The notes beneath the pieces were generated by a model, which did no database searches, was not told the origin of the DNA, and was given only the letters and a program-made list of their open reading frames with translations. From the NCBI RefSeq assembly GCF_025370775.1, contig NZ_JAMXEX010000002.1, forward strand, positions 372,001-436,000: a stretch of DNA of 64,000 bases, given 5' to 3'. Positions 24,775-45,036 of this stretch are shown one piece after another. Position numbers and translations under genes: made by a program. Positions within the stretch are counted from its first letter, which is position 1. Each line of letters opens with the position of its first letter. Origin of the DNA: Ancylothrix sp. D3o (GTDB lineage: Bacteria > Cyanobacteriota > Cyanobacteriia > Cyanobacteriales > Oscillatoriaceae).

Positions 24775-25046
24775 AGAGATCGAGGAGGGAAGATTAGGTT
24801 GGTTTGAGTGTATGCGTTAGCAATTACGAAAAGTTATTAAATAGGTATTTTTTTGATGTTAAGGGGAAAAGTCGAGGCTGGTGGACAAATCTACAAAAAT
24901 TTACAAAGCCCGCAGTCTGGGGGTCTAGGGTGGTTGCGTGGGCTTTGCAGCAATGGGCTGGTAGCATTTTGGTTCATCTTGGTAGTAGGGGAGAAAGCAT
25001 ACTAGACTATTATTAATAAAATTTAGGAATTTTGGTAATAAAAGCA
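24775..25046. promoter_or_regulatory. Divergent intergenic region upstream of tyrA
   Basis: A 270-bp A/T-rich gap between the divergent cysteine hydrolase and tyrA genes. It contains a hairpin with CAAAGCCC (24904-24911) and GGGCTTTG (24940-24947), separated by 28 nt. No known riboswitch was recognised. The hairpin lies about 100 bp before tyrA. Confidence 0.35.
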
Positions 25047-26144
25047 ATGACCCACACAACACTTGAACAAATCGATTTGCAATTAATCAAACTTTTGGGC
25101 GAAAGAATTTCTTTGTTGGCCCACTCTACAAAAAACCCAAGTTTAAAGGAACAAATATCGGCTTTAAAACCATTACTAAAAGAGGCGGGTGTCCCAGAGT
25201 TTATATGGGAAAATTTGATTACAACCTGTGCAGCTGCGACTGTTGCTGCTGCTGCTATACCAAGCTCGAATGTAATAGCCCGAAATGTTACGATCATTGG
25301 TGGGCGGGGCATGATGGGTCAATTTTTCAGTCAACAACTAACCGCTGCTGGTCATCATGTAAAAAGTTTGGGAAGTAAGGACTGGGAACGGGCAGATACT
25401 CTGTTAAAAGAGGCAGATTTGGTTTTAGTATGTGTTCCCATTGAACGAACAATTGATATTATCCAAAAAACGGCATCCTATATTTCTAAAAGTACAGTTT
25501 TGGCCGATATTACTAGCATTAAAACTCCTTTTTTAAAGGCTATGTTAGAGGCTCATTCTGGGCCGGTGGTTGGTCTTCATCCGATGTTTGGGCCGGGGGT
25601 TAATTCGTTTTTATCCCAAACGGTCGTGGCTTGTCCTGGTCGAGACCAAGAGGCGTTTCAATGGCTTTTAGATTTTATTAAAAATGAAGGAAGTAAGTTG
25701 ATTGTTTGTAGTGCGGAGGATCACGATCAAATGATGGTTGCAGTGCAAGCAATTCGGCATTTTTCCACATTTAGTTTAGGTGTATTTTTGGCAGGAGAAA
25801 AGTTTGATATTGCTCGAAGCTTGGAGTTTTCAAGCCCAATTTATCGTTTAGGGATTGATATGGTAAGCCGACTTTTTGCTCAGGATGCTTCGCTGTATGT
25901 CGATATTATGTTGGCGACGGATGAGCGGTGTTTAGCGATTAATAATTTGGCCAATACTATTGCTCGACTTGCGGAATTAGTTATTGAAAAAAATCGCGCT
26001 GGGTTGCTAGAAGAATTTGAGAAAACCAGCGCTGTTTTTGGCGAAGAAACAGAGAGAGCGTTGCGGGAAAGTAATCATGTTATTAATGCTTTGAGTACCT
26101 TATTAGCTGCCCGCAAAGCTGAGGAAAACTGGCAAGGAAGTTAG
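25047..26144 (+). CDS. tyrA: Prephenate dehydrogenase, E. coli TyrA-type with degenerate chorismate-mutase domain
   Basis: A 365-residue enzyme making 4-hydroxyphenylpyruvate from prephenate with NAD. Residues 1-65 align to the AroQ chorismate-mutase domain of E. coli TyrA (LEQIDLQLIKLLGERISLLA), but the first catalytic Arg is replaced by Glu and the LVAEVGEVK Lys region is missing, so mutase activity is unlikely. The dehydrogenase part has VTIIGGRGMMGQFF (from 81), GLHPMFGPG and QAIRHFSTFSLG, all as in E. coli. Cyanobacteria normally use an arogenate-type TyrA of about 280 residues, so this is an extra, probably pathway-dedicated enzyme. It heads the region that also holds HPPD and an NRPS-like gene. 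ATG 25047 was chosen; a TTG at 25032 is possible. Confidence 0.88.
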   Translation: MTHTTLEQIDLQLIKLLGERISLLAHSTKNPSLKEQISALKPLLKEAGVPEFIWENLITTCAAATVAAAAIPSSNVIARNVTIIGGRGMMGQFFSQQLTAAGHHVKSLGSKDWERADTLLKEADLVLVCVPIERTIDIIQKTASYISKSTVLADITSIKTPFLKAMLEAHSGPVVGLHPMFGPGVNSFLSQTVVACPGRDQEAFQWLLDFIKNEGSKLIVCSAEDHDQMMVAVQAIRHFSTFSLGVFLAGEKFDIARSLEFSSPIYRLGIDMVSRLFAQDASLYVDIMLATDERCLAINNLANTIARLAELVIEKNRAGLLEEFEKTSAVFGEETERALRESNHVINALSTLLAARKAEENWQGS

Positions 26145-27139: not shown

Positions 27140-28167
27140 GTTAAACGTCTCCTGATTGTTTCTGTAATATTCCGCATCCGTTTAAGGTTTAGCAGTAATG
27201 CCAAGGCAATTTGCACCGGCAAAGAAATTACGCTAGAACCCACCGTTAGAGGGTTGGGATTAATAGCCATCGGCTCATAACCGTGCTTTTCCATTGTAGT
27301 TTTTGCAACCCACTGGCATAAAAAAATTTCTGTGGAAGTTAAACCACCTTTTTGCCAGCTACCGGCTCTTTCTTTGTTGATACCTTTTTCTTCAGGTTTG
27401 TCAAGTCCGCTGGAAGAACCCACCTGTGGAACTTCCAACAAATTTTTATCAAAGGGAATTTCAATAAATTCGCAAACTTTTTGAACAATGCTATCGGGAT
27501 CGCTTAGCAAATCTTCAAAACGAATGGAAAAGACGCGGGGATCATCGGCAAATTTTTTAGCAGAACGGATCGAGGCATTCCAAAGTTTAGTAATGGTAAT
27601 GGGATGATAATTCATCCTCGCTCGAAATGCCTCTTGCAATGGAATATTTTTTGCTCCCAAAAACCGCCGCATCCACTTACGCTTTTGCGATAACAAGACA
27701 TCACGGGGATCTCGAATCATGTTAATAATTCGCGCTTCGGGATATAACTCCAAAATTTCCCCAATATAAAAAACATTTCTTGGGGTTTGGTCACAAGGAA
27801 TCGTTTTATTGTATTTCGCTGCTTCCCAATATAAGAAAGCATCAAATATGTCTGCTGAAGTTAGGTCTTTAGCCCCAGTTGCCGTTAGTAATTCTTTAGC
27901 TTCTGGTAAAAATCGGCTAGAATCTCCTTGCCGTAAATAGCCATCTCTTTGAATACAAAGCAAGCGAGATGCTAGTTGTTCTGCTTTGTTGTTTTCAACG
28001 GTACGATCTCGATCTTCCGGCGCCCATAACTGCTCAAAAAAATGCAGTTCATCAAACGTAAAAACTTGCGGATGTTTCCCCATGATGCGCCCCATCATGG
28101 TTGTACCGCTGCGACTGTTGCCGACTACAAAAATCAGCCGACGTTTTCGTTCATACATTGACAGCAC
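27136..28167 (-). CDS. Sulfotransferase family protein 2
   Basis: A 343-residue sulfotransferase. The PAPS loop is FVVGNSRSGTTMMG near residue 14; the 3'-phosphate site is RIINMIRDPRDVLLS near 148; RFEDLLSDPD follows. It is not a close copy of the downstream sulfotransferase, so the pair may act on two positions or two acceptors. It is the first gene of the pair, with about 100 bp to the lipoprotein hydrolase gene upstream. A C-terminal hydrophobic stretch (ISLPVQIALALLLNL) could anchor it at a membrane. Confidence 0.85.
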   Translation of the reverse strand: MLSMYERKRRLIFVVGNSRSGTTMMGRIMGKHPQVFTFDELHFFEQLWAPEDRDRTVENNKAEQLASRLLCIQRDGYLRQGDSSRFLPEAKELLTATGAKDLTSADIFDAFLYWEAAKYNKTIPCDQTPRNVFYIGEILELYPEARIINMIRDPRDVLLSQKRKWMRRFLGAKNIPLQEAFRARMNYHPITITKLWNASIRSAKKFADDPRVFSIRFEDLLSDPDSIVQKVCEFIEIPFDKNLLEVPQVGSSSGLDKPEEKGINKERAGSWQKGGLTSTEIFLCQWVAKTTMEKHGYEPMAINPNPLTVGSSVISLPVQIALALLLNLKRMRNITETIRRRLT

Positions 28168-28270
28168 CTTCTGATACTTATTTGTTCTTTGGCTATCTTA
28201 ACCGCTTTCTTTTGAGAACGGTAGATTTTAATGAGATTTTATCAAAATTTTATAATATATCTAGTGGTTT

Positions 28271-29791
28271 CTAAGGACTGAGTTTTGTAATGGAGTAAGG
28301 AGGAAGGCTAAGGGCTCCTGAGACTGTGCCTTTATTGTTCATAAGTAAATCATTGTTTACGTTTGAAGTCAGAGGATTGCCAGAAATTTGTTCGTAATTT
28401 ATTGGTTGAGTAAACAAGGGAGTAACATCAATTTTTAGGGGTTGAGGCGATAAATTTAAGATGATACCTTTCTGACTTTTGGCGTTGCTGAATAGCCACC
28501 CATATAAGGACGGATATTCAAAATTATTTTTGCCTTTTAATAGGTATTTTTCTGGAAAATTGATTTTTTGGGCAGATGTCATTTCTTCTGTGGCATCGCC
28601 TAATAAACGTAAAGCTGAGCCGCTGGCTGATAAATTAAAAGAACGAGGTATTCCTGGTGCCTTTTTGTCAATAACCGCTGCAAAGTGGGGATGTCCAGCT
28701 AAAAGATGATTGCAAATGAGTTCTACCCTCGAATCTTCTAAAAACACCATGCTCATTGCTGCGCTATAAAGTCCATGTGCCCACGTACCAGCCACCTTTG
28801 GCTGTTCTTGATTCTGATTATCTGGTTTGGTTTCCCTTAAGTTATATTCGGTAATCCAAATTTTTTTGTTTTGGATGTTTTGGAAGTTTGGATCGGTTTG
28901 TAGGGTTTGCCAGTTGCGGAATGGTTCGCCTAAAACAATAGGAATTTCTACTTCAGTAAATGGTGTAGATGATGAAGAATTTAATCCATTTTCCCAGTAC
29001 AAATGCAGAGTTATCGCCTCAGCATTTTGTAAAACTGGGCCTAAAATAGCTTTATTCCAATTTTGTAATCGACCTGATCTTTGAGGGATAGGAATCGCTC
29101 CAACAACAGAGGTTTTCACATCAGGAAATTTTTGCTTGATGGCCGTAATCCATTGATTCGCTGTTTCTGCATAAGATCGAGGGGTTGGAAAGACAGTATT
29201 ATAATTTTTAATATTAAAATAAAATTCGTTTCCTAACTCAATATACTCCACAGGTATGCCTATTTTTTCGGCTTTTTCCAACATTTGTATTTGCGATTTC
29301 AAGTCAGATGTGAGCATATTTAAGACAAATAAAGGACTGGTGCCTGTTGCCTCTAATCCTATTTTAAAATCTTCAAGTTTGCTGGCGGTATTTTTGCGAG
29401 CTTGATACCGTAAAAACTGTGGCAAACCTCCGGGTAAACTGCTAGTATCCTCAATCAACCCTCCACGTTGCCAATCCCAATAATTTGCGACTTCTCCCCC
29501 TGGTAAACGCAACATTCTAGGGTTTAGTAAACTGACGTTTTTGACTAAATCGGTATCTCGCCAAGATTCAATGCGTACTGAGTTAACATTGAAACACATA
29601 TACTTCGGAGAAAGTGGTCTTTGTGTCGCCAAAGAAAGAGCAGGGTTTGTCACATTTTGGCGGGAATTTTGGCTAATAAAATTGTTGTTATTTTCTCCCT
29701 GACAAGCGTTTATACCCAACAAAATAAGTCCAGAGACAACGAGGGATGAAGCAGTTTTATACAAATTATTTTTATTATCAATTCTTTTCAT
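28271..29791 (-). CDS. Lipoprotein with glycoside-hydrolase-like (GH-A clan) domain
   Basis: A 506-residue protein starting at ATG 29791 (GGGGA upstream). The N terminus has a lipoprotein signal with lipobox LGINAC near residue 30, so it should be lipid-anchored. The body is a (beta/alpha)8-type hydrolase: the acid/base Glu is in YIELGNEFYF and the nucleophile Glu in KIWITEYNL, the spacing of clan GH-A enzymes such as GH39, GH51 and GH79. The exact family and glycan are unknown. Its place beside sulfotransferases, an O-antigen ligase and a flippase suggests trimming or remodelling of a surface polysaccharide. Confidence 0.7.
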   Translation of the reverse strand: MKRIDNKNNLYKTASSLVVSGLILLGINACQGENNNNFISQNSRQNVTNPALSLATQRPLSPKYMCFNVNSVRIESWRDTDLVKNVSLLNPRMLRLPGGEVANYWDWQRGGLIEDTSSLPGGLPQFLRYQARKNTASKLEDFKIGLEATGTSPLFVLNMLTSDLKSQIQMLEKAEKIGIPVEYIELGNEFYFNIKNYNTVFPTPRSYAETANQWITAIKQKFPDVKTSVVGAIPIPQRSGRLQNWNKAILGPVLQNAEAITLHLYWENGLNSSSSTPFTEVEIPIVLGEPFRNWQTLQTDPNFQNIQNKKIWITEYNLRETKPDNQNQEQPKVAGTWAHGLYSAAMSMVFLEDSRVELICNHLLAGHPHFAAVIDKKAPGIPRSFNLSASGSALRLLGDATEEMTSAQKINFPEKYLLKGKNNFEYPSLYGWLFSNAKSQKGIILNLSPQPLKIDVTPLFTQPINYEQISGNPLTSNVNNDLLMNNKGTVSGALSLPPYSITKLSP

Positions 29792-29885
29792 AAATCCCCT
29801 GTAGGTAAAAATTGCTTGGCGAATCAAGTCTCGCCTATTCTATCCTAAATTATAGCTAAGAGCTATAATTTTATTGATCCTAATT

Positions 29886-31325
29886 TTAGGTGCCTGTCAG
29901 CCTCTTTTTTCGTTCAACGTAATAAGCATTAACCGCTAATCCTGCCAGTAGCCAAAAATAAAAGGCAAAGGGTCGTAGCTTAAAGATACGTTCAATAAAT
30001 CCATAGAAAAATGCCACCTGGGTCAAAGTTTTTACGATGACTCCTAGATTTTTATATTCTTGGCTAGAAGTCATCCGAATCAATACATTAGCATACTGAA
30101 AAATCCTCAAAAGAATCATCCAATAAAGTAACAGCCCTGGAAAACCTATAAATCCTAAAACACCAAACCAGTAAGGATCTTCATAAACAAACAAATTATT
30201 CTCTAACAAAACTTGATCTTCGGGTTCGGTTAACAGTTGTTGAATTTTTTTCCTTACTGAACCTAGCTCTGGACCAAAGCCAAAAATGCTACCACTCATA
30301 ACAATGCTACGACAAATTGTTATAATCATCCATCCTCGAGAAGCTTCTGCGGTATGTTGCCAATATTCAGCGGAAAAAATAGTTAAAAAATAAGAAGTTA
30401 TATCAAACGATTCCTCACTGCCACTAAATTTTCCTCCCACATAGCTGGTCTCAAAATTCAACAGCGGCAGCAGAAAAGAAGCAATCAGTCCTAATGCAAG
30501 TACACTCCAAAGAATCTTTAAAACCGCTTGAAATCTCTTAAAATATATTAAAATAATGAGCGGCACGATTAGTAAAAACATTAAGGTAGCCCGTTTTTTG
30601 GAAGCAAATATTCCAAAATAAATAGCTAACATACTAGCGGCATCTTTTACATTGTAAACAAAAGGCGAAGGACCCAATACATAAACTAGCCAAACTATTG
30701 TAATGACTAATAAAAATCCAGCTAAAATCGCATTATCTCCAAAAGTCCCGAAATTAGCTCCTTTATGCTCTAAAGCGCCTTGAGCAGCATTGGAGCCTTT
30801 AGGAGCAAACAGAATTTGACTGACTTGAGAAGGTAAAAAGAATTGCAAGGAAGCAACCAAAGCTTGTATCAGCCCCGATATTCTAACAACATTTAAAATT
30901 TGCTGAAGTTGAGGAATCGAAATATCAATATTAGCAACCGTATAATAAACTGCTAAGTAGCGCCAAACGGCGCGAATATTTTTAATACTCCCTGGAAGGC
31001 TGGCTTTATTGATTATAATTGAAATCGTGATGGAAATAAATAAAGCAATGACTAAAGGATCTATAGGGGTGATTCGGATTTTTTTACCGGCTTGGATGCG
31101 ATCATAAAAAACTTTTCCCATCAAAATATAAAGCGCCAATTCTGGAACCAAGCCCAACAGTGTCAACACCGGCTTTGGCATCAGTGTCAATTTGAGAATA
31201 AAATCTTCAAACGGTGTGTATATACTAAAGCCCAAAATAATCGCATACGGCAATTGTCCGCTTTCTTTGGTAGTGTGATACCATGCTTTTGCATGAGCGA
31301 TAGCTTTAGGGATGCTATAATTCAT
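29886..31325 (-). CDS. O-antigen ligase / Wzy-type polymerase family membrane protein
   Basis: A 479-residue polytopic protein, start at ATG 31325. About ten to twelve hydrophobic helices alternate with short loops; one large periplasmic loop (around residues 300-400) contains the conserved charged segment and RSIVMSGSIFGFGPELGSV, typical of WaaL/Wzy-type proteins. It would polymerise or ligate an undecaprenyl-linked glycan on the periplasmic face. It is divergent from the GT4 gene at 31453, with a 127-bp promoter region between them. Confidence 0.8.
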   Translation of the reverse strand: MNYSIPKAIAHAKAWYHTTKESGQLPYAIILGFSIYTPFEDFILKLTLMPKPVLTLLGLVPELALYILMGKVFYDRIQAGKKIRITPIDPLVIALFISITISIIINKASLPGSIKNIRAVWRYLAVYYTVANIDISIPQLQQILNVVRISGLIQALVASLQFFLPSQVSQILFAPKGSNAAQGALEHKGANFGTFGDNAILAGFLLVITIVWLVYVLGPSPFVYNVKDAASMLAIYFGIFASKKRATLMFLLIVPLIILIYFKRFQAVLKILWSVLALGLIASFLLPLLNFETSYVGGKFSGSEESFDITSYFLTIFSAEYWQHTAEASRGWMIITICRSIVMSGSIFGFGPELGSVRKKIQQLLTEPEDQVLLENNLFVYEDPYWFGVLGFIGFPGLLLYWMILLRIFQYANVLIRMTSSQEYKNLGVIVKTLTQVAFFYGFIERIFKLRPFAFYFWLLAGLAVNAYYVERKKRLTGT

Positions 31326-31452
31326 AAAACTCTTGTCCTTTGTTTTTTTTATCTTTCTTCCAACATCGGCTATTGTATCGCAACCAAAAATAGCAGGATG
31401 TTCTAGGGCGAACACCGAACCACTTATTACCAATTACTTTTTCTCGAAAACT

Positions 31453-32565
31453 ATGACAGTTGCTTTAATCGCGCATTATCTAGGACCACGTTTAGGAATT
31501 GGCCAATATCTGGAAAGATTATTGCCACCTTTAATCGAGCAATTGATCGGCCTAAATATTCCGGTAAAAATATTTGCTTCACCCAACGCATTTGACAAAA
31601 CTCCGGCCTTACAAAAGTTAGAGAATTACACAAAAATTGTGCCGTTTCTTGATTACTCACCAAGCAAGCGCTACGCTTGGGTGGCGACAAGTTTCAGCAC
31701 TTATTGTAACAAAGAAAACGTCAAAACAGTTGTTTGGTTATCTAATCCTATTGTACTGCCTTGGCATCCCCCTACCCTTGCGGTTATTCACGATGTTAAC
31801 GAATGGAAAAACGCTAATAAATATGGAGATCGCCTAAAAACTGCCTTACGATCTGCGATTTATCTTGATGCTTCGATTCGGTTTAGTCGAAAAATTATTG
31901 CGGTTAGCAAAGCCACAGAAAAAGATTTATTACATTTTCGTCCTCAATCAAATTTAAAAGAGAAATTAAAAGCAATTCCCAATGGTGCAGACTCGCCGTT
32001 GGTGAATTTAAAATCCGTGCCGGTGCAGATGCCGAGCGGCCCCTTTTTGTTATCGGTTGGACGCATTGATCCTGTGGCTAAACGTCTTCCTGAAGCCGTT
32101 GCTTTAGTCTCAGCATTGCGAGAGAGCAGTGGAGAAGGTTGGGAATTACATCTAGTCGGAGGAATGAATACCACAACTCAATCTGCGGGTGAGGCATTTT
32201 TGAAATCAATTGAATCATTACCTTGGGTAACTTATCACGGTCATATTCCAGATAACGAATTAGCCGAATGGTATCGCAAAGCCTCCGCAATTGTATTTTT
32301 ATCTGATCAGGAAGGCTTTGGTTTTCCCATTGCAGAAGCGGCATCTTTTGGCCGTTGGGTGGTCGTTAGTCAAAGCAACGAAGCCGGAATAGAAGCTGGT
32401 GGACAGGCAATTATTCCGGTAGATTCCCAAAAGCCTAAAGCTGGTGCGGCGCTGCTGTTACAACAATTACAAAAGCCAAATTCTCCTGTCGCTAATCAAA
32501 ATTTGCTAACCTGGGAAGCTACAGCAAAAGCTTATGCTGAGGAAATTTCTGGGATGCTAAAATAA
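31453..32565 (+). CDS. GT4-family glycosyltransferase
   Basis: A 370-residue retaining glycosyltransferase with two Rossmann-like domains. The C-terminal donor domain has SVGRIDPVAKRLPEAV, HLVGG, WVTYHGHIPDNELAEWY and the E-x7-E motif in DQEGFGFPIAEAASFG. The start ATG 31453 removes an unlikely N-terminal extension. It probably adds a sugar during assembly of the surface glycan made by the surrounding genes. It is the only plus-strand gene among them and converges on the flippase gene. Confidence 0.88.
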   Translation: MTVALIAHYLGPRLGIGQYLERLLPPLIEQLIGLNIPVKIFASPNAFDKTPALQKLENYTKIVPFLDYSPSKRYAWVATSFSTYCNKENVKTVVWLSNPIVLPWHPPTLAVIHDVNEWKNANKYGDRLKTALRSAIYLDASIRFSRKIIAVSKATEKDLLHFRPQSNLKEKLKAIPNGADSPLVNLKSVPVQMPSGPFLLSVGRIDPVAKRLPEAVALVSALRESSGEGWELHLVGGMNTTTQSAGEAFLKSIESLPWVTYHGHIPDNELAEWYRKASAIVFLSDQEGFGFPIAEAASFGRWVVVSQSNEAGIEAGGQAIIPVDSQKPKAGAALLLQQLQKPNSPVANQNLLTWEATAKAYAEEISGMLK

Positions 32566-32626
32566 AACCTAGGGAATTGGGGACGCAGGGGAACCATAGC
32601 TTCTGTTCTCAATTCCCAAAAATTCT

Positions 32627-33967
32627 TTATTTTGCATTAAATTTGGCAAACAAAGAAACGCCGGTCTTTTCTAAAAAATACAGAATCACGCCCACATTAA
32701 TAACCAACATTAAACTGGCACCCATTGCAATGCCAGCCAAACCTTGCCATTGCAAAAACAACCAACTCATAAACACCCCGACAAACGACATAGACACCAT
32801 TGTGTAAAACAATAAAAGATACTTTCTTTGAGCATACAGCCCGCCCTCCAATAACGGAATTATACAAGCAAATACTAACCCCATCCCGAACCACAAAAAT
32901 ACATCGGAAGTTTGCTGTATAGAAGCTTCTCCGAAGGAACCACGTCCATACAATCCTTCAATAATTTGCTGATTGAATAAGGCGATAAAGAGGGTGGCGG
33001 GCACTGTTATTAATAAAGCTGATTTAAGATTCCGCCGTAACGCAGAACCCAAACGAGATTTTTTACCGGCCAGGTCATCTTCTGTCATTGCCGGCAGACT
33101 GGTGGTAGCAATACTTATCCCTAACAAAGTTTGAGCAGCAGAAACAACTCTCATCGCAAAATATAACATCGAAACTCCGCCAACGCCCACCAAAGATGGT
33201 AATAATTGACTGCGAATTAAATTAGCCGCTTGTCTGAGAATAAAACCGAACGTAGGTAAAAAGCCTGCTTCCCACAAACCGGATAAATCTTCTTTAGAAA
33301 CCCAAGCTTTCCATTGATGTTGATGACCGGCTTTGAAGGCATCAATAAACACCATCACGAAAAAAGCACCAAACCCAACACTATAAGCCAAAGCAACCCA
33401 GAGGGAAATGTTATTAAAATTCCATGCAAAAGCGATAGCAGCGACTACAACTGCCGGTGCAGCTGCATTTCTCAAAGCTACCACACTAAAGCGTTTTTGG
33501 CTATTTAAAACCACACTTAAAACCGCGATAGGTGGTGCAAAAAGCGCCATAGGGGCTGAGGCTTGTAGTAAAAAAGCAGCTTCCCTTCTACCTTCACTTG
33601 AAAATCCGGGCGCAAGGGCAATGACAATGATTGGGGCGAAAATTGCTAACACCAAAGCTATAACTAAACCAACCACCAACGATAAATTTACAATTCCACT
33701 AACAAAGCGATTATATTCTTGTTCGTTAGCCTTAACTTTGTACTCCAAAAATAGCGGCACTAAGCTAAAACGAGTTCCCTCACGCCAAACAATATCGCTA
33801 ATGCGAGGCAAGCTCAAACCAATTATTAAAGCATCAGCAGTTATGCTAGTACCAAGTTTTGCCGCAATCAAAATATCAGCAAGCAACCCCAACAACATCC
33901 CCACAAAGGTTAATATCATTACTTTCAGGGTTGGCGATCTCAACAATTTAACCAGCCGATTTTTCAT
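32627..33967 (-). CDS. MurJ/MviN-like lipid-linked glycan flippase
   Basis: A 446-residue MOP-superfamily transporter with about 12-14 membrane helices. The N-terminal segment ADALIIGLSLPRISDIVWREG and SLVPLFLEY resemble MurJ. Such proteins flip undecaprenyl-linked oligosaccharides across the inner membrane. Genuine MurJ is usually a core gene placed elsewhere, and this one sits with glycan genes, so a Wzx-like role is more likely. An export role for the NRPS-like product is an alternative. Confidence 0.8.
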   Translation of the reverse strand: MKNRLVKLLRSPTLKVMILTFVGMLLGLLADILIAAKLGTSITADALIIGLSLPRISDIVWREGTRFSLVPLFLEYKVKANEQEYNRFVSGIVNLSLVVGLVIALVLAIFAPIIVIALAPGFSSEGRREAAFLLQASAPMALFAPPIAVLSVVLNSQKRFSVVALRNAAAPAVVVAAIAFAWNFNNISLWVALAYSVGFGAFFVMVFIDAFKAGHQHQWKAWVSKEDLSGLWEAGFLPTFGFILRQAANLIRSQLLPSLVGVGGVSMLYFAMRVVSAAQTLLGISIATTSLPAMTEDDLAGKKSRLGSALRRNLKSALLITVPATLFIALFNQQIIEGLYGRGSFGEASIQQTSDVFLWFGMGLVFACIIPLLEGGLYAQRKYLLLFYTMVSMSFVGVFMSWLFLQWQGLAGIAMGASLMLVINVGVILYFLEKTGVSLFAKFNAK

Positions 33968-34075
33968 TGTTTATTCTTGAATCTTGAAATTGCAAAGTTC
34001 ATGGCTCTTTATTGTTTCTTAAAATTGAAACTCTAAATAATGAGCCATGAACTCTCAACAGCTTACCACTAATGA

Positions 34076-37000
34076 TTAAGCATTAACTTTCTCTAAACAA
34101 GCTTTTAATTTTCTGGCAAGTACCTCGACATTTGGTAGACTCATCACACCATCCGTACCCAAAGTATCGTGTTTTCCAGGGACTTCGTGAATTTCTAAAC
34201 CATCGGCAATAAATTCTCTCCAACCCATATCCGCTTTGTTGTAATATTTCACCGGCTGAATACTGGCACGGAATAAAACTGCCGTTCCTTGATAGGCCGG
34301 TGGATTATATTTTGCGGCTGCTTGCCGATGTGCTTCTGTTAGTAATTGATTTTTTACCATTTCTGGTAATTGATGCCCCCTTTTTTGGTACATTTTAGAA
34401 ATTCTGTACAACGCTTTACGCTTATATTTCTTGACTTTCCATTGAAGTTTATCGACAACATAATTGAATTTTTCTTTCATTCCCAGTTGGCTTAAGTTGC
34501 TCAAGTGGTTTGACAAACGCTCACCAGAGACTAAATTATTATCGCCTTGCCGCAATAAGTCTGGGGATGGACTATCTAATAAAGCGAGTAAACCCACTGT
34601 TTCTCCATCGGCTTGTAGTTGTCGTGCCATCTCAAAAGCCACCGCACCACCAAACGAATATCCTGCTAAATGATAAGGCCCTTTGATTTGTAGAGTACGT
34701 ATTTCTTGGAGATAGTAAGCTGCCATTTCTTCTACGCAGGTGAGAGGAAATTTGATCCCATCTAATCCTTGGGCTTGCAATCCGTAGACAGGTTGATCTT
34801 CGCCAAGAAGCCGCGCTAAATCTCGATAAAATAACACATTGCCGGCGGCGGCGTGAACGCAAAATAACGGCGGTTTAGAGCCTTTTGGCTGAATCGGAAT
34901 TAAAGAAGACCAGCTAACATTTTGCTGCTCATCCCCTAGGATTTTTGCAATTTGTTCAATGGTGGGGGCACTAAGAAGCGTTGCCAGGGGTAAACTTTTG
35001 GCAAACTCTTTTTGAATTTCTGCAAAAACTGTTACAGCTTGCAAGGAATTTCCGCCGAGTTCAAAGTAGTTATCTTTGATACCAACGCGATTAATATTCA
35101 AAGCATTTTGCCAAATCTTAGCAAGTTTGGTTTCTACTTCATCACGAGGCTCTATATACTCGGTTTCTGCATCCCGTTCTTGTTCTAAAGGAGGCTGAGG
35201 TAGCCCTTTTCGGTCTTGTTTTCCATTTGGTGTCACCGGCAATGCTTCCAACACCATAAACACCGAAGGAATCATATAATCTGGTAATTTCTCTGCCAAA
35301 TATTCCCGCAATTCTTTGGTTTTTGGCTGTTTTTTTCCTTCTAAAACAATATAGGCAACTAAGCGTTTATCGCCAGGGATATCTTCTCTGGCAGTCACAG
35401 CAGCATCGTGAATATCTGGGTGTTGTCTTAAGACTGATTCAATTTCGGCAACTTCAATACGGAAGCCCCGCAGAGATACTTGAAAGTCTGTTCGTCCCAA
35501 CAATTCAACTTTGCCATCATTTAAAAATCGTCCGACGTCGCCGGTTTTGTAAAATCTTTCTCCGTCGATCACCACATATTTTTCGCGGGTTAATTCTTCG
35601 CGGTTGGCATAGCCGCGTGTGATGCTGGCACCGCCTACATATATCTCACCCGGAACGCCTATCGGCACAAGGTTTTGATAGGGATCATAAATCCGAATTC
35701 GCACGTTATTAAAAGCGCTGCCAATGATGTTTTTTACCGCTTTTGTTTCTCGGCAAACCGGATAATTTGAGCAAAGAGTTGTGGTTTCACTGCATCCGTA
35801 AAGGATATAAATTTGGGCGTTTTTAAAGATGGGTTTGACATCTTCGATTAAGTCGGGGGCAACGGTATCGCCTCCCATGAAAACACGCCGAATATTGTTG
35901 AATTTTTCGGGTGGTAAATTTTGGGCGTTGATATAATCAACGGCTTTCCGCATTAAGCTGGGGGTTAAATGAACGTTGGTAAGTGAATCAAAACCGGCAA
36001 CAAGTCGGCTCATGTCTAAAACGTTTTCGCGGGAAATGACAACAGAAGTGCCACCACCCATCCAGGGCCCTAATACTTCCAGCAAGGAAATACTAAAGGA
36101 AAATCTGGCAATACATGGCATGATATCGCTTGATTCAAACTTGAATTTATCCTGGGCTGTCAGAATATAATTCATTAAGTTTCCATGTTCGGCGACAACT
36201 GCTTTCGGTTTGCCGGTGGTGCCAGATGTGTACAGAATATAGGCGGCGTTGTTTTGGGTAGTTGTTGTGATTAAATTCTCTTGACTTTCTGGGGCAATGG
36301 CGGGTTCTTTGAGGTTGGTATTTTCTTCGGCGTTGATTGATAAACCGGCCCCTAATAATTCGTCTAGGCAGAGAATTTGTGCGTTGGTTTTTGGCAGTTG
36401 GGAAACGAGGGGAGTTTGGGTGAGTAATACCGGCACATTGGAGTCTTCTATCATGTAGGCGAGCCGGTCTTTTGGATAGCTTGGATCGAGGGGAACGTAA
36501 ACGCCTCCCGCTTTAAATATGGCGATGAATGCAATTACTATTTCTAGGGAACGATCCGCACAAATTCCCACCCGAACTTCTGGGCCAATACCTAATTTTT
36601 GCAGATAGTGAGCGAGTTGATTTGCTTGATTATTGAGTTGCCGGTAGGTTAGGCTTTGGTCGTTAAATTTAACGGCGATGGAGTCGGGGGTGCGTTCGAC
36701 TTGTTCTTCAATTAATTGATGTAAGCATTTATCTTTGGGGTACTCTGCGCTTAGGTTATTCCATTGTTGAGTGATTTGGGTGATTTCGGGTTGGGTGAGT
36801 ATTTGATAGCTGTTGATTGGTTCGTTGCGGCTGGTTAATATGTCTTGGAGTATGGTTTGATAATGGCCGGTGATGCGTTCGATGGTTTCGCTGTTAAAGA
36901 GTTCGCTGTTATAGTCGATGATGCCTTCTATTTCTGCGTTGAGGTGGCTAAAGGAAAGATGCAAATCGACTTGGGGAAATTGGGGGGAGAGGATGCCTTT

Positions 37001-37459
37001 TGTACAACCTACTTGGAAGATTGAAAGGGGGGTGAGGTTTTGTTCTTGCAGGATAATTTCAAAGGGGTATTCTTTGTAAGTTAAGGCTTGATTTAGGGTT
37101 TGTTGAACTCGCTGGAGTAGTTCTAAAAAGGTGGGATTTCCTGAGAGGTTTGTTCTTAATGCTAGGGTGTTTTTGCCGCTGGTGGTGCCGGTGATTATGT
37201 CTTCGGTGTTTGTGTAGCGATAGAGGAGAATTTTAAAGGCGGTTAAAAGGATTGTGAATAAGTCGGTTTGTTCTTGTTCGCTGAGGTTCTGTAGGCCGGT
37301 GCTTAGTAGTTCGGGTATGGCAAAGGAATGGGTGGCGCTTTGATAGGTTTGGCTGGCGGTTCTGGGCCGGTCGGTTGGTAGTTGCAATACTGGCAGGGGG
37401 CCGGTGAGTTGTTGTTTCCAGTATTCGGCTGCTGATGTTTTTGGGGTTGTTGCTGTCAT
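34076..37459 (-). CDS. NRPS-like synthetase, partial C - A - T - TE
   Basis: A 1127-residue megasynthase. Residues about 1-235 are the C-terminal half of a condensation domain without the HHxxxDG motif and with an internal gap, so it is not catalytic. The adenylation domain (about 240-760) has YTSGTTGKPK, GEIYVGG, YKTGDVGR and NGKQDR (catalytic Lys). The T domain has LGGNSLQ near 801; the TE has GYSFGG near 933 and His in PGKHD near 1098. Aligned to GrsA-PheA, position 235 is Ser (FSISLLEV) where amino-acid-activating domains have Asp, and the A5 core reads YGCSETTT. This argues for a keto, hydroxy or aryl acid substrate. A-T-TE enzymes elsewhere dimerise arylpyruvates; tyrA and HPPD in the same region fit that reading. 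Confidence 0.85.
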   Translation of the reverse strand: MTATTPKTSAAEYWKQQLTGPLPVLQLPTDRPRTASQTYQSATHSFAIPELLSTGLQNLSEQEQTDLFTILLTAFKILLYRYTNTEDIITGTTSGKNTLALRTNLSGNPTFLELLQRVQQTLNQALTYKEYPFEIILQEQNLTPLSIFQVGCTKGILSPQFPQVDLHLSFSHLNAEIEGIIDYNSELFNSETIERITGHYQTILQDILTSRNEPINSYQILTQPEITQITQQWNNLSAEYPKDKCLHQLIEEQVERTPDSIAVKFNDQSLTYRQLNNQANQLAHYLQKLGIGPEVRVGICADRSLEIVIAFIAIFKAGGVYVPLDPSYPKDRLAYMIEDSNVPVLLTQTPLVSQLPKTNAQILCLDELLGAGLSINAEENTNLKEPAIAPESQENLITTTTQNNAAYILYTSGTTGKPKAVVAEHGNLMNYILTAQDKFKFESSDIMPCIARFSFSISLLEVLGPWMGGGTSVVISRENVLDMSRLVAGFDSLTNVHLTPSLMRKAVDYINAQNLPPEKFNNIRRVFMGGDTVAPDLIEDVKPIFKNAQIYILYGCSETTTLCSNYPVCRETKAVKNIIGSAFNNVRIRIYDPYQNLVPIGVPGEIYVGGASITRGYANREELTREKYVVIDGERFYKTGDVGRFLNDGKVELLGRTDFQVSLRGFRIEVAEIESVLRQHPDIHDAAVTAREDIPGDKRLVAYIVLEGKKQPKTKELREYLAEKLPDYMIPSVFMVLEALPVTPNGKQDRKGLPQPPLEQERDAETEYIEPRDEVETKLAKIWQNALNINRVGIKDNYFELGGNSLQAVTVFAEIQKEFAKSLPLATLLSAPTIEQIAKILGDEQQNVSWSSLIPIQPKGSKPPLFCVHAAAGNVLFYRDLARLLGEDQPVYGLQAQGLDGIKFPLTCVEEMAAYYLQEIRTLQIKGPYHLAGYSFGGAVAFEMARQLQADGETVGLLALLDSPSPDLLRQGDNNLVSGERLSNHLSNLSQLGMKEKFNYVVDKLQWKVKKYKRKALYRISKMYQKRGHQLPEMVKNQLLTEAHRQAAAKYNPPAYQGTAVLFRASIQPVKYYNKADMGWREFIADGLEIHEVPGKHDTLGTDGVMSLPNVEVLARKLKACLEKVNA

Positions 37460-37499
37460 GGTATGGGTTATTTTTTTATTGTGGGTTTTTTAGGGTTTT

Positions 37500-37533
37500 T
37501 AACCGCAGATAAACGCAGATAAACGCGGATAAA
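37500..37533. repeat. Dispersed CGCAGATAAACG repeat upstream of the NRPS-like gene
   Basis: AACCGCAGATAAACGCAGAT followed by AAACGCGGAT, the same element as at 17823 and 22797. It lies in the 180-bp gap between HPPD and the NRPS-like gene and probably does not carry a promoter. Confidence 0.65.
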
Positions 37534-37640
37534 TTAAATGCGTTTTTGGTTGGTTTTTTGGGTTTATTTTTAGGAGGGTGGTAATGGGTTTTTTTGATCT
37601 GCCCATTACCAATGACTTTTGACAAATGACAAAGGACAAG

Positions 37641-38762
37641 TTATAAGTTTCCGCGTAGGGATTGTTCGCGTTCTACGGCTTTGAAGAGGGCTTCAATGTT
37701 TCCGTGTCCGAAGAGTTGGGTGCCGTTGCGCTGGATGATTTCTAGGAATAGGGTAGGCCGGCTTTGGACGGGTTTTGTGAAGATTTGCATGAGGTATCCT
37801 TGGGGATCGCGGTCGATTAAGATTCCTAGATCCCGTAGCATAGAAAAGTCTTCGTCTACGTCGCCAACACGGTCTTCTATGACGTCATAGTAGGTGTCGG
37901 GGATGCGTAGGAATTCGATGCCGTTTCCGCGTAGTGATTGGATGGTTTGTACCATGTCGTTTGTCAGGAGGGCAACGTGTTGAATTCCTGGGCCGCGATG
38001 ATAGTTTAAAAATTCTTGAATTTGTGATTTTTGGCTGCCGGAAACTGGTTCGACTATTGCAAGTTTTATGGAACCTACTTTGTTCTGCACGATGGAGTAG
38101 TGCATTCCGCTGACGTGGGTGTTGACGTCTAGGTTGTAGGAGTTGATGAAGCCTAAAACGTTGCAATAATGGTCTACCCATTTTTGAATTTCTCCGCTGG
38201 GTACACACAATACCATGTGGTCTACGGAAAGTAGGCCGGTGGAGAGAGTGAGGGGAGGATTTTTGATGGGTTCGTAGCCTGGTAAAAATGAGCCTTCGTA
38301 GTTATCTCTTTGAATGAATGAGTGTACAAAGTCTCCACAAATGCCGATGGTTGCTTTGATGGCTTGCCCGTTTTCGTCTTCCATAACTGTTGGTTCGAGG
38401 ACGGGTTCGGCACCGCGTTTAACGGCTTCGTTGAAGGCTTTTACGGCATCATCTACTTTAAAGGCGATGTCTTTTACTCCGTCGCCGTGTTCGGTTATAT
38501 GTTTGGAAATTGGGCTGTTTGGCTCGAAGGATGAGGAGAAGACAAAGCGGACGTTTCTTTGTCTAACGACGTAGGAAACATGATCGCGGACTCCTGTTTC
38601 AAAGCCGGCATAAGCTATGGGTTTAAATCCGAAGGCGGTGCGGAAAAAATGTGCTGTTTGAAAGGCGTTACTTGCGTAATATTCGATGTGATCGATGCCT
38701 TTTATTCCTAATAAATCTTCTTGTTTTTGGCTGGTTACTTCTGGTTTAGTTCCGACTACCAT
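37641..38762 (-). CDS. hppD: 4-hydroxyphenylpyruvate dioxygenase
   Basis: A 373-residue non-haem iron dioxygenase converting 4-hydroxyphenylpyruvate to homogentisate. Two vicinal-oxygen-chelate domains are present. The iron ligands are His in SVDHMVLC, His in GIQHVALL and Glu in PTLFLEIIQR; the C terminus FGHGNIEALFKAVEREQ is characteristic. The related hydroxymandelate synthase is a possible alternative, but the C-terminal block is HPPD-like. The length and sequence match the long bacterial type, not the shorter form I associate with core cyanobacterial tocopherol synthesis, so this may be a pathway-specific copy. It lies upstream of, and in line with, the NRPS-like gene. Confidence 0.9.
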   Translation of the reverse strand: MVVGTKPEVTSQKQEDLLGIKGIDHIEYYASNAFQTAHFFRTAFGFKPIAYAGFETGVRDHVSYVVRQRNVRFVFSSSFEPNSPISKHITEHGDGVKDIAFKVDDAVKAFNEAVKRGAEPVLEPTVMEDENGQAIKATIGICGDFVHSFIQRDNYEGSFLPGYEPIKNPPLTLSTGLLSVDHMVLCVPSGEIQKWVDHYCNVLGFINSYNLDVNTHVSGMHYSIVQNKVGSIKLAIVEPVSGSQKSQIQEFLNYHRGPGIQHVALLTNDMVQTIQSLRGNGIEFLRIPDTYYDVIEDRVGDVDEDFSMLRDLGILIDRDPQGYLMQIFTKPVQSRPTLFLEIIQRNGTQLFGHGNIEALFKAVEREQSLRGNL

Positions 38763-39279
38763 CTTTGCATTCTCCTGACGTGGCTATTTTGGGCTTTGAG
38801 TTTGTCTTTAGTCTTGATCTTCCGGGGGGAAGGGCCAGACTGTGGTTGTTCTTAAACTTGTAAAAGTTAATCCTTGAAGGATTTAACAGGTTTTTTATCG
38901 TGTTCTGTGTTCAGTCTGTGGGGTCGGTGATTTTGACCCTTATGGTAGAGGCGTTGTTGAGAACGTCTCTACCACATTGTATATGCCAATTTCTGGAACT
39001 GTCCACAAAAGTTTTTATTGTTTTATTAAGTACGCTGACATAAAAGCTATGTGGTTGAGCTTTGGCGCTATTACGAACCACGCCTATGTCGGCTTATTTA
39101 ATTCTGGTTGTTTGGCCGGCCTGCTGGGAGGCACTTTTTACAAAAATTTTAAAGAGGGGGGATTTTTGTTTAAGGTTTCTTTATATTCGGGATTGGGCAA
39201 ATTGTCCTTTGTCCTGTGTCATTGGTCATTAGTTTTTTAAATGCGGACTAATGACTAATGACTAGGGAGTAATGGCTGT
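38763..39279. other. Gene-poor spacer between HPPD and dndE
   Basis: No convincing gene. It includes the HPPD promoter region, an inverted repeat at 38945-38972 (GTAGAGGCGTT / AACGTCTCTAC), which is a common cyanobacterial dispersed element, and tandem ACTAATG heptads at 39246-39263. The spacer marks the border between the biosynthetic region and the Dnd island. Confidence 0.5.
38945..38972. repeat. Inverted repeat, GTAGAG-type dispersed element
   Basis: Arms GTAGAGGCGTT and AACGTCTCTAC pair over 11 bp (one G-T) with a 6-nt loop. Its location in a gene-poor spacer suits a small mobile palindrome. Confidence 0.6.
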
Positions 39280-39663
39280 TTAGTCTAATGTTAGCTGGAT
39301 CAAGTCTTCGATTTTTTTGAGTTTTTGTTCACCGGCCAAATAACCTATTCCGCGATGTAGATGCAGGCGAAATTGGGTTGCGAGGGTTTCTTTGTCTGTT
39401 CCTAACTTGTCTTTTTGGCAGCGTTGTTTGAGGGCGATTGTTAATATGTCGCTCATTTCTCCTCCGAATATTTTCCAGGTAAGTTCTAGGTTGCTATCGG
39501 CGGGGATGGGAACGGGTGAGGGGATGCTTGGTTCGGCTAATGACCGGCAAAATGCCCACCGGCATAGTATGTTCCATTGGTCTATTTTTGTGTTTCTTTT
39601 AAGTTTGATTAGTTGGTCTCTGGCTGTTTGGGATAGGCGTATTCTTTCGACTGGTGGTTCCAT
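39280..39663 (-). CDS. dndE: DNA sulfur modification protein DndE
   Basis: A 127-residue basic, helical protein. The opening RIRLSQTARDQLIKLKR, the central WNILCRWAFCRSLAEPS and the block SNLELTWKIFGG plus the end RLHLHRGIGYL are diagnostic of DndE. DndE is a small DNA-binding subunit of the phosphorothioation complex, with affinity for nicked DNA in characterised systems. It is the last gene of the dndC-dndD-dndE series, 70 bp after dndD. Confidence 0.92.
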   Translation of the reverse strand: MEPPVERIRLSQTARDQLIKLKRNTKIDQWNILCRWAFCRSLAEPSIPSPVPIPADSNLELTWKIFGGEMSDILTIALKQRCQKDKLGTDKETLATQFRLHLHRGIGYLAGEQKLKKIEDLIQLTLD

Positions 39664-39733
39664 AATTGTTAAGTGTATAAGCGGTGTTTTAGCTCAATGC
39701 GTAATTGCCGGTGGATGTGGTATGTGCATCGCC

Positions 39734-41731
39734 CTACCAAAAATATCCTTTTTCTATAATGGTTTGCCGGCCTGCTGAGTCATATTTTAACAAATATTCT
39801 TGAGCTATTGCTTCTTGTTCTTTCAACTTTTTAAATTCATTTTCTCCTATTTCTGTGTCTGTTGAAAGCAGGATGACTTGATGGGATGCTGTGGGAAAAT
39901 ATTTCTCTACAAGATTAGATCGGTGGGAGGAGTCAAGCCGGCCTAATGGTGTGTCAATCGCGATGGGAAGATGCCGGCCTGAAACTCTGGCTAATCCCCA
40001 TAAAAAGGCGATGGCTAAAAGTTGTTTTTCACCGGCAGATATGCGGTGTTTCGGTACTGGTTTTCCTTGGGTATCATAAAGGGATAAACTGAAGGTGTTG
40101 GTGTCTATTACAACCCGATGAACGAGATCGTTTTTGTGTAATAAATATCGGAAACATTCAGTTATTTCGATTTCCAGTTTGTTGAGTTTTTTGAGGGTTA
40201 TTTTTTGTTTAAATTCTTTTAGGGTGTTTTGGGTTCTGGCGATGGCGTTGATGATGTGTTCGTTGTTTCTTTTGGTGATGTGTTTTTGGCTATAGTCTTC
40301 GAGTTCTTTTTGAACTTTGATGATTTGCTTTTGGATGTCTTCGAGTTGCCGTTTTGTTGTTTCGTAGTTGACTTTTTCTTCTGCTACTTGTTTTTGGGCT
40401 TCTTGCAGGGCTTTTTCTAGTTTTTCGTAGACTTCGGGGGAAGCGGCGGCGGCTAGGGTGCGGTCGGTGTTGTCAATTTCTATTTCTATTTTTTGCAGTT
40501 CTTGTAGTGTTTGTTGGGCTGTATTTTGGCTGGCGGTTATGTGATATTTGAGGAGGGTTTCTAGTTGGTTTATGGTTGCTTCATCGGCGTTTAGCCAGAG
40601 TTTTTCTGTGCTGTGCGCTTGTTGTTCTAGTTGTTGGTTTTCTTGGTCAATAAAGGTTTGTATTTGCTCGATTTGTTGGGGTTTAAGGGCGATTTCGTTG
40701 AGGTAGTTGAGGAGGCGGATTGTTCTTTGGTTCATCGCTTCTAGGGCGATTTTTGCGCTTGTTTGGGTGGTTTCTTTTTCGGCTTGAATTTGTGCTTCTT
40801 GGAGTAGGGGGGTGATGAGGGCGAGGGGAAGGGGGCCGGCGGCTTGTTCTGCCATTGCTTGCCTGGTGGTTTCTGCTTGTGCTGTTAGGGTTTTGAGCTT
40901 TTGTTCAATGTTGCTGCGTTCGGCGGCGATTTTTCCGCCTTCGGTGAGGAATTTTTGGCTGGCTTTTTGTTGGTTATTTTCGGCGCGATCTACGCGGGTT
41001 TGGTATTTGCTTAGTTCTTGTTTTACGTCTTCTTTTTGGCTGTAGAGTTGTTTAAGTTTTTCTTCGATTTTGTCGAGGGTGGTTTTTTGTTCTGCATCGG
41101 CTAGTTGTTTGCGTTTGCGGTTGAGTAATATGTCGAGGTGGATGCCAAGTTTTTCGGCCAGTTCTAAGCCTAAAAGTGATTTGATGGCACCGGTGACTGT
41201 TTCGGGGGGAGTTTCCATTTCGGCTAGTTCTTTGACTTGTTCTCCGTCGAATAAGAACAAGTTTGATATGCCGAGGGGAAGGAGGGTTTCGATGTATTCA
41301 TCCCAGGTTTCTGTGAGGGCTTCGTCTACTTCCCAGTCTGAGGTGTTTTCGCTGTAAACTAAGATGCCTAATGTGTCTTTGTTGTCTTTGAGAATGGGAT
41401 ACCAATAGCGGACGATTTTAACTTTTTTGATTTGGTTGTCTTCAATGTGTTGAAAGGCGAGTTCGATGCGGGCGCTGTCGGCGGTTTGATGACGGTTAAT
41501 GCTTTGTTTTAAAAAGTCGGGGTAACTGAGATTTCCGCGTGTAGAACATTGAGCCCGGATGCCATAAAGGGCGAGGCGAATGGCATCCATAAGAGTTGTT
41601 TTACCGCCGCCATTCATGCCGCCAAAGAGGATAATAGGCCGGTGATTTCCATCAATTTCCGGGCTAAGATTGATGATTTGTTTACCTTGATAGGGGCCAA
41701 AATTTTGCAGAGTAAGTTCTAAAAATTGCAT
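39734..41731 (-). CDS. dndD: DNA sulfur modification protein DndD (SMC-like ATPase)
   Basis: A 665-residue ATPase with RecF/SMC architecture. Walker A is GGMNGGGKTTLMDA near residue 40; the central 210-500 region is coiled coil; the signature ISAGEKQLLAIAF and Walker B IAIDTPLGRLD lie near the C terminus. FLFDGEQVKELAEM is the DndD-typical DGEQ segment. DndD is thought to supply energy for DNA opening or nicking during sulfur insertion. No CxxC zinc hook is present in the coiled coil. It lies between dndC and dndE on the same strand; a 180-bp repeat-rich gap separates it from dndC. Confidence 0.93.
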   Translation of the reverse strand: MQFLELTLQNFGPYQGKQIINLSPEIDGNHRPIILFGGMNGGGKTTLMDAIRLALYGIRAQCSTRGNLSYPDFLKQSINRHQTADSARIELAFQHIEDNQIKKVKIVRYWYPILKDNKDTLGILVYSENTSDWEVDEALTETWDEYIETLLPLGISNLFLFDGEQVKELAEMETPPETVTGAIKSLLGLELAEKLGIHLDILLNRKRKQLADAEQKTTLDKIEEKLKQLYSQKEDVKQELSKYQTRVDRAENNQQKASQKFLTEGGKIAAERSNIEQKLKTLTAQAETTRQAMAEQAAGPLPLALITPLLQEAQIQAEKETTQTSAKIALEAMNQRTIRLLNYLNEIALKPQQIEQIQTFIDQENQQLEQQAHSTEKLWLNADEATINQLETLLKYHITASQNTAQQTLQELQKIEIEIDNTDRTLAAAASPEVYEKLEKALQEAQKQVAEEKVNYETTKRQLEDIQKQIIKVQKELEDYSQKHITKRNNEHIINAIARTQNTLKEFKQKITLKKLNKLEIEITECFRYLLHKNDLVHRVVIDTNTFSLSLYDTQGKPVPKHRISAGEKQLLAIAFLWGLARVSGRHLPIAIDTPLGRLDSSHRSNLVEKYFPTASHQVILLSTDTEIGENEFKKLKEQEAIAQEYLLKYDSAGRQTIIEKGYFW

Positions 41732-41767
41732 GACGTATTGCTAATTACTAATTAAACGTGAAGACAA

Positions 41768-41791
41768 TCGCAGGCAAGATGCCTGCGCCAC
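41768..41791. repeat. Dispersed palindromic repeat (GGCAnnnTGCC family)
   Basis: TCGCAGGCAAGATGCCTGCG then CCAC, a near-perfect short palindrome. Relatives are at 48787-48810, 50113-50172 and 54045-54068. Confidence 0.7.
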
Positions 41792-41825
41792 AAAAGCTGT
41801 GCCAAAACAGAAAACCCATCCTATT

Positions 41826-41883
41826 CATCTGCGTTCATTTGCGTAGCGCTACGCGCGGCTACGCCTAACATCTGCGGTTAAAA
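41826..41883. repeat. Dispersed ATCTGCG repeat with palindromic insert (inverted copy)
   Basis: TTCATCTGCGTTCATTTGCG, then a palindromic insert GTAGCGCTACGCGCGGCTACGC, then ACATCTGCGGTTAAA. It has the same design as 22797-22890 in the opposite orientation. It lies between dndC and dndD. Confidence 0.7.
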
Positions 41884-41910
41884 AATCCTCATTTAGCAAA
41901 AATTAAACCA

Positions 41911-43584: not shown

Positions 43585-43850
43585 CTCCTGATTTGCATGG
43601 CCGGGCCTTTAATGATATAATCAATTTTCCATTTTACTATAAAGTAGAGCTTGTTCTTTATTATTTGCTTTTTTACGCAGTACCTTCCTTAATGAGCTCC
43701 TATGCTGGTTATAATAAATAGGCGTTCAGCTTACTTGCTTTCTTGCGAAACAACACGAATCTCCGAGAAAATAAAATTTTTGAATTGGAGAAAGAGTGAT
43801 GTAATTCAAGAGGTACGGAAAAACAATTATACCAGCTTCCGTGAGATTAT
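43585..43850. promoter_or_regulatory. Divergent promoter region between dndC and the first DGQHR gene
   Basis: A 266-bp A/T-rich gap separating the modification genes from a DndB-family gene. DndB proteins regulate dnd promoters in studied systems, so a DndB operator may lie here. No clear operator repeat is visible. Confidence 0.45.
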
Positions 43851-45026: not shown

Positions 45027-45036
45027 ACTTTTAGCA

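Follow-up and report, generated by a model that had tools for sequence, protein, structure and literature searches.

A Cyanobacterial Synthetase with Ser235 in Its Adenylation Pocket, a Candidate Loading Module for 4-Hydroxyphenylpyruvate Dioxygenase Products

Which acid does a nonribosomal peptide synthetase (NRPS) load when its adenylation (A) domain has Ser at position 235, where amino acid-activating A domains have Asp? The question is raised by an NRPS-like gene in a 64,000-nucleotide stretch of Ancylothrix sp. D3o (contig NZ_JAMXEX010000002.1, positions 372,001 to 436,000), hereafter called the window. The encoded protein joins an A domain to a carrier (T) domain and a thioesterase (TE), and the adjacent gene carries the label of 4-hydroxyphenylpyruvate dioxygenase (HPPD) with an active site resembling that of hydroxymandelate synthase (HMS). 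The answer that we favour, by a modest degree, is that the A domain loads the product of the paired dioxygenase, which would be 4-hydroxymandelate in the window and homogentisate in a group of relatives with HSGICM pockets. More tentatively, and at a little under an even chance, these proteins would represent a hitherto undescribed family of NRPS loading modules in cyanobacteria, specialised for what 4-hydroxyphenylpyruvate (4-HPP) dioxygenases produce, in which the pocket switched at least two times between homogentisate and 4-hydroxymandelate along with the recruitment of HPPD- or HMS-type enzymes. Such a family would provide a natural two-substrate A-domain code that can be read from neighbouring genes. 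The features under discussion are collected in Table 1.

Table 1. Features of the window discussed in the text, with positions in the window and the basis of each assignment
Feature	Position	Strand	Basis
NRPS-like protein, 1127 aa: vestigial half condensation (C) domain, A (Ser235), T, TE	34076..37459	-	Pfam, code alignment
C-terminal half of C domain, residues 9-235, without the HHxxxDG half (vestigial)	36755..37435	-	Pfam Condensation
Adenylation domain, residues 245-760, code SILHFGLTLK	35180..36727	-	Pfam and PheA alignment
Carrier (T) domain, residues 778-839, LGGNSL, Ser805	34943..35128	-	Pfam and motif
Thioesterase, residues 863-1102, Ser935/Asp962/His1097	34154..34873	-	Pfam and motif
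Hydroxymandelate-synthase-like Fe(II) dioxygenase, 373 aa; NCBIfam label HPPD	37641..38762	-	Active site, tree, NCBIfam
T-protein-type prephenate dehydrogenase (TyrA), possible source of 4-HPP	25032..26144	+	Pfam, NCBIfam
MurJ/MVF-type membrane flippase, possible operon member	32627..33967	-	PF03023; below MurJ equivalog cut-off

Architecture, pocket code, and relatives of the synthetase

The NRPS reading frame (34076-37459, reverse strand) has no internal stop. Pfam places AMP-binding at residues 251-617, AMP-binding_C at 672-747, PP-binding at 778-839, and Thioesterase at 863-1102, and the key residues of the three domains are all present (Ser805 in T, Ser935/Asp962/His1097 in the TE, and Lys747 of motif A10). 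An earlier sequence-only reading had described the protein as A-T-TE, the layout of quinone and furanone synthetases, which have no C domain; the three domains were found as described, together with a vestigial half C domain that the reading did not list. The best Condensation match (residues 9-141) begins at position 193 of 456 in the Pfam profile, and the remnant shares 34-38% identity with the eight best-matching C-domain stretches from other NRPSs of the same genome.

The pocket code was read by alignment to a fragment of GrsA PheA that yields DAWTIAAICK at 10/10 code positions. In this alignment, Ser456 (codon 36092-36094, by arithmetic) stands for Asp235 of PheA. The code, SILHFGLTLK, matches the sequence-only reading in all ten residues, as does the A5 motif YGCSETTT, found at residue 554. 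Asp235 is retained in 20 of the 23 other NRPS-type A domains in the fetched stretches of the same genome, a count without five rows that resemble acyl ligases and separate from the rest in the A-domain tree; the exceptions are two domains with Val (VDW...) and one unrelated domain with Ser (SGAKTFSSLK, L134, G000:C25). Loss of Asp235 is uncommon, not unique, in this genome. An AlphaFold prediction of the A domain from four sequences gave a pLDDT of 49.

Relatives were sought with a 176-residue core of the A domain (window 35660-36187), which matched in 3/386 genomes of the phylum (1e-35), 4/8 of the family (1e-30), and 10/388 of the order (1e-30), in overlapping samples. Together these give at least 11 carrier genomes: that of the window (G000), three of genus g145 (G387, G388, and G389), G289, G129, G543, G442, G510, G571, and G572. 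The number is a lower bound, with at most nine candidates scored per genome in the phylum and order samples. Absences are provisional, as several of the genomes are drafts (completeness is 82% for G571 and 95.7% for the window's genome). A search with the whole NRPS locus returned four distant loci, and plasmids gave no match to the A core by tblastn at 1e-25.

The 11 carrier A domains all fit the pattern SI[LF]H[FS]G[LMI][TSC][LM]K, and in a tree with 34 other A domains they form one clade (94/87). Because the code is common to 11 A domains that form a single clade, this code type does not reflect chance. The Ser235 domain is the first in every relative, and no working C domain is seen ahead of it. 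The synthetases of G572 and G510 are A-T-TE proteins that follow an N-terminal stretch unrecognised by Pfam; that of G571 has a similar stretch followed by A-T-C-A-T-TE, the layout also seen in G442. In g145, a degenerate C domain (HPVLLDS for HHxxxDG, read in the G389 copy) precedes A-T-C-A-T-TE, and by eye G129 and G543 are A-T-TE and G289 has the layout of the window protein. No intact C domain was found upstream of the Ser235 module by Pfam (window, G442, G571, G572, and G510), by motif (the G389 copy of g145), or by eye (G289, G129, and G543). Since the C domain that precedes the module is a relic, nothing would be condensed ahead of it. In the second module, the A domains of G442 and G571 have the code DILQ[IL]G[IV]VWK, which is near the glycine code, and that of g145 reads DPRHFGFQAK. 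The TE nucleophile is Cys in G289 and G571. As a separate observation, the DPRHFGFQAK code of the second g145 module (L018:6797-14104) recurs in two NRPSs of the window's genome, L129 and L135 (last residue unaligned in L135).

The sequence-only reading had gone further and proposed that the enzyme activates 4-HPP or a related acid, such as phenylpyruvate, and that its TE joins two such units into a furanone, quinone, or ester, after the pattern of the atromentin and ralfuranone synthetases. Such a role would suit an A-T-TE protein that has neither a working C domain nor Asp235 and that is supplied with 4-HPP. The code argues otherwise: according to an excerpt of PMC10316625, which deals with fungal quinone synthetases, Val at code position 1 goes with α-keto acids, and position 5 is Asn for 4-HPP (atromentin) or Ile/Val for phenylpyruvate, whereas the window protein has Ser and Phe at these positions. 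Moreover, the paired dioxygenase, whose active site resembles that of HMS more than that of HPPD (see below), would use up 4-HPP, and in some relatives the module delivers its unit to a second one that has a C domain. We therefore regard arylpyruvate activation and dimerisation as very improbable. What survives of the earlier proposal is a non-amino acid aryl substrate derived from 4-HPP and the tie to the HPPD-family neighbour.

The dioxygenase gene and its pairing with the synthetase

The dioxygenase gene lies 181 bp upstream of the NRPS gene on the same strand. Its product keeps the 2-His-1-carboxylate set of Fe ligands (His182, His262, and Glu341), as HMS does, and has Ala235, Val237, and Ile356 where HPPD has Pro, Asn, and Phe. 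The HMS structure 2R5V has Thr, Ile, and Ile at these sites, sharing with the window enzyme the replacement of the final-helix Phe by Ile and the loss of the HPPD Pro and Asn. Over 56 aligned rows, a few of which are one gene twice, the three sites read PNF in 49 (including 1T47), SVI in three (g145), AVI in two (the window gene twice), TII in one (2R5V), and NNF in one. The other cyanobacterial HPPD genes that were read have Pro/Asn/Phe, except that of G442 (Asn/Asn/Phe); the reading covered 33/54 HPPD matches, with the remaining 21 (41-47% identical) outside it and at most five candidates scored per genome. A second HPPD-family gene in the window's genome (L005) also has Pro/Asn/Phe. HMS chains and the HMS-type genes carried on Streptomyces plasmids read Thr at the first site, Ile or Leu at the second, and Ile at the third, and two of these plasmid genes adjoin NRPS genes.

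In a maximum-likelihood tree of 36 rows, the enzymes of the window and g145 stand beside actinobacterial HMS (98/96), with a warning for long branches. The same grouping was obtained (90/88) in a tree of 29 rows built without the active-site stretches and without the long rows, which omitted 3ZGJ, L036, three divergent NRPS-linked dioxygenases with long branches, and two duplicate rows; a single-domain protein of G289 was left out of both trees. Convergence of the HMS-like site from within the HPPD clade was considered and dropped, as the tree joins the window enzyme to HMS (98/96, only 90/88 without the active-site columns).

A different product of the window dioxygenase was also considered. 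The A domain could load homogentisate throughout, or a ring-oxidised shunt compound, of the oxepinone or quinolacetate type, that arises from the changed active site. The overall sequence of the enzyme is HPPD-like, and altered HPPDs show what such sites can do: the F337I variant loses about 98% of its activity, and its products include hydroxymandelate and an oxepinone as well as homogentisate (Gunsior 2004, as cited in an excerpt of PMC3739788), and in plant HPPD, where Asn282 matters, N282A cuts efficiency about 160-fold (excerpt of PMC6750108). Weighing the other way, all three key changes in the window enzyme point towards HMS, in which Ile355 is among the tunnel residues, near Phe350/Gly351 (excerpt of PMC3720870); the tree joins the enzyme to HMS, at the support given above; and the window pocket is unlike those of members paired with enzymes that keep the HPPD residues. 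We consider these alternative products unlikely.

An HPPD-like gene is the direct same-strand neighbour of the Ser235 NRPS gene, at 13-181 bp, in 5 of the 11 carriers (the window, G442, G572, G510, and G571). All five adjoining dioxygenases score over the NCBIfam HPPD cut-off, and they fall in three different branches. In G289, genes for a single-domain VOC dioxygenase, an O-methyltransferase, TyrA, and the NRPS follow one another on the same strand, with two genes between the dioxygenase and the NRPS. This VOC protein (L016:13832-14512) consists of one domain related to the C-terminal half of HPPD, keeps the three Fe ligands, and is possibly a minimal hydroxymandelate-synthase-like enzyme. 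The three g145 genomes encode a dioxygenase 77-78% identical to that of the window and a TyrA 71% identical, on other contigs than the NRPS, and their relatives G386, G390, G391, and G392 matched neither the NRPS core nor a close dioxygenase.

For comparison, an NRPS match within about 1.5 kb was found at 0/37 other cyanobacterial HPPD loci, among which the HPPD of G442, from the same match list, is not counted, and HPPD was found in 0/11 other NRPS stretches of the window's genome. HmgA is present at 19 of these 37 control loci. A search with the HmgA of G197 matched in that genome and in the other control, G334, but in none of the 11 carriers, so the dioxygenase there probably does not open the common route of tyrosine degradation. 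A promoter and terminator scan of 33900-39300 found sites no commoner than in shuffles (11 vs 9.5 and 8 vs 7.2).

Pocket type, dioxygenase type, and the proposed pathway

The pockets fall into two groups, named before the A-domain tree was built, that follow the type of dioxygenase. HFG[LM][TS]LK pockets (window, g145, and G289) go with [AS]-x-V dioxygenases, and HSGICMK pockets (G442, G572, G510, and G571) go with [PN]-x-N dioxygenases that also have Phe. In the tree, G289 nests within the HSGICM clade (93/87); the HFG group as a single clade is rejected (p-AU 0.034) and the HSGICM group as a single clade is tolerated (p-AU 0.249). G289 sides with the HSGICM group against the window and g145 at 87 of the 370 columns, all outside the pocket. 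It sides with the window and g145 against the HSGICM group at 17 columns, which include three of nine pocket positions (hypergeometric p 0.006; by a looser measure, 43 columns with four in the pocket, p 0.013), with the reservation that columns on a tree are non-independent and the p values rough. The pocket of G289 thus looks like one that converged on the pocket type of the window, the outcome to be expected from a change of substrate.

These patterns also bear on a further alternative, in which the A domain activates some other acid (a benzoate, a cinnamate, a β-amino acid, or a hydroxy acid) and the dioxygenase belongs to a separate pathway. The pairing is missing in G129 and G543 and unlinked in g145, where the dioxygenase adjoins dnd genes and no NRPS was found in the stretches of about 20 kb around it. 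Direct adjacency in 5/11 carriers, with dioxygenases from three branches and against 0/37 control loci, and the match between pocket and dioxygenase type make separate pathways quite unlikely in our view.

Loading of the dioxygenase product, as favoured here, would proceed as follows. The HMS-type Fe(II) dioxygenase (37641-38762) would turn 4-HPP into 4-hydroxymandelate, as its active-site residues and its place in the tree suggest. The Ser235 A domain would then adenylate 4-hydroxymandelate and load it onto Ser805 of the T domain; the conserved pairing and the pockets that change with the dioxygenase point to this step. Among the ten window proteins scanned around the dioxygenase, no aminotransferase or hydroxyacid oxidase was found, so that the acid would be loaded without further conversion. 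Lastly, the TE would take the acyl group on Ser935 and release an ester, formed either with the substrate itself (an oligomandelate or depside) or with an acceptor; this is the least certain step and amounts to a guess. In the relatives, the same module stands alone, as A-T-TE, or opens a two-module NRPS, with a second A domain that is Gly-like in G442 and G571 and has the DPRHFGFQAK code in g145. The SI[FL]HSGICMK group would load homogentisate, the partners seen there keeping the HPPD residues at two or three positions.

Several points weigh against this proposal. If a lone A-T-TE protein did no more than load one acid and hydrolyse it off again, its cycle would be futile, and an acceptor or oligomerisation must therefore be assumed. 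The independent lineages are few, and the support of the Ser235 clade (94/87) is unstarred. Long branches, including that of 3ZGJ, meet in the 36-row tree, and support in the 29-row tree is below the starred level; the nearest rows by path, g145 aside, are HPPDs. Among structures, HPPD 1T47 scores higher (314 bits) than HMS 3ZGJ (222) and 2R5V (211). The window dioxygenase also lies over the HPPD equivalog cut-off of NCBIfam (406 vs 277 bits); an HMS-type Streptomyces protein that adjoins NRPS genes passes it too (328 bits), and the family label therefore cannot decide activity. The enzyme further retains SQI, where HMS rows have G[QH]I, and Phe where most HMS rows have Tyr, and because of these HPPD features a mixed or third product is possible. 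Regarding the pairing, the NRPS and dioxygenase genes of g145 are on separate contigs, and the module is found without an adjacent dioxygenase in G129, which has one Pro/Asn/Phe gene elsewhere in its genome, and in G543, which gave no HPPD match at 1e-70. Finally, the dioxygenase of G289 is a single-domain VOC protein that has Tyr rather than Ile at the third position and scores only 38.5 bits to HPPD.

Surrounding genes and comparison with known systems

The sequence-only reading had also linked the synthetase to tyrA, a link that is weak in the window. The window's genome, like G387-G389, has no PDH_N protein over the cut-off other than TyrA, and the tyrA of the window lies beyond a break in synteny. 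Window 14009-26144, which ends in tyrA, corresponds to one block in g145 (L162, and mostly in L164), and window 37641-54948, with the dioxygenase and dnd genes, to another (L093 and L096). The stretch between them (26141-37459), which holds the NRPS gene along with those for two sulfotransferases, a Wzy-like protein, a glycosyltransferase, and the MurJ-like flippase, lies outside both blocks, the search of g145 beyond these having covered the NRPS only. A dedicated tyrA in this cluster was thus rejected: the window TyrA is probably a housekeeping enzyme whose closeness to the NRPS comes from rearrangement. In favour of the link, G289 has an ordinary PDH_N gene and, within its NRPS run, an extra tyrA copy of the same type as that of the window. 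By eye, the first ~80 residues of the window TyrA resemble a worn chorismate mutase domain. A T-protein TyrA also occurs in G382 (L058:5125-9957), in one run with a stand-alone acyl ligase (CFNFFAGPFK), two open reading frames (ORFs), and a small VOC-like ORF; a relative of this acyl ligase is present in the window's genome (L133).

The MurJ-like gene lies 108 bp downstream of the NRPS gene on the same strand. The genes of 26141-33967 (sulfotransferases, Wzy-like protein, glycosyltransferase, and flippase) hint at the synthesis of a sulfated polysaccharide or the decoration of a product. On the other side, 39734-48773 carries dnd-type DNA phosphorothioation genes, encoding a protein with the fold of phosphoadenosine phosphosulfate (PAPS) reductase (DndC-like), an AAA ATPase (DndD-like), and three DndB-family proteins; the HMS-like gene stands at the same end of the dnd block in g145 (L093-L095).

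If the proposal is correct, homogentisate and 4-hydroxymandelate join the acids that are loaded directly by NRPS A domains, with paired enzymes that predict which of the two is loaded. It would also place a hydroxymandelate synthase outside the actinobacterial 4-hydroxyphenylglycine (Hpg) pathways from which this enzyme is known, hidden under the HPPD label. No description of such a dioxygenase-paired NRPS system was found in mostly open-access literature, judged by titles and the starts of abstracts among the matches listed.

Of the known systems, the HMS of Hpg-type pathways (HmaS/Hms, 2R5V) resembles the window enzyme in its Fe ligands, in Ile for Phe, in the loss of the HPPD Pro and Asn, in a probably neighbouring branch of the tree, and in its link to NRPSs; the window enzyme differs in being cyanobacterial and in having Ala/Val instead of Thr/Ile. 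HPPD shares with it the fold family, the Fe ligands, and the best curated family model, whereas the window enzyme lacks the active-site Pro, Asn, and Phe, and its genome has no match to HmgA. With the synthetases of atromentin, polyporic acid, and ralfuranone, the window protein has in common the A-T-TE order, the lack of Asp235, and an aryl substrate proposed to derive from 4-HPP. It differs from them in Ser1/Phe5 rather than Val1/Asn5, in its vestigial C half, and in its dioxygenase neighbour, and some of its relatives are loading modules of two-module enzymes. Aryl acid-loading modules of the DhbE/EntE type, with the code NFSAQG..., likewise take a non-amino acid starter and have no Asp at position 235; the code of the window protein differs from this one, and the window protein further differs in carrying its T domain and TE in the same chain.

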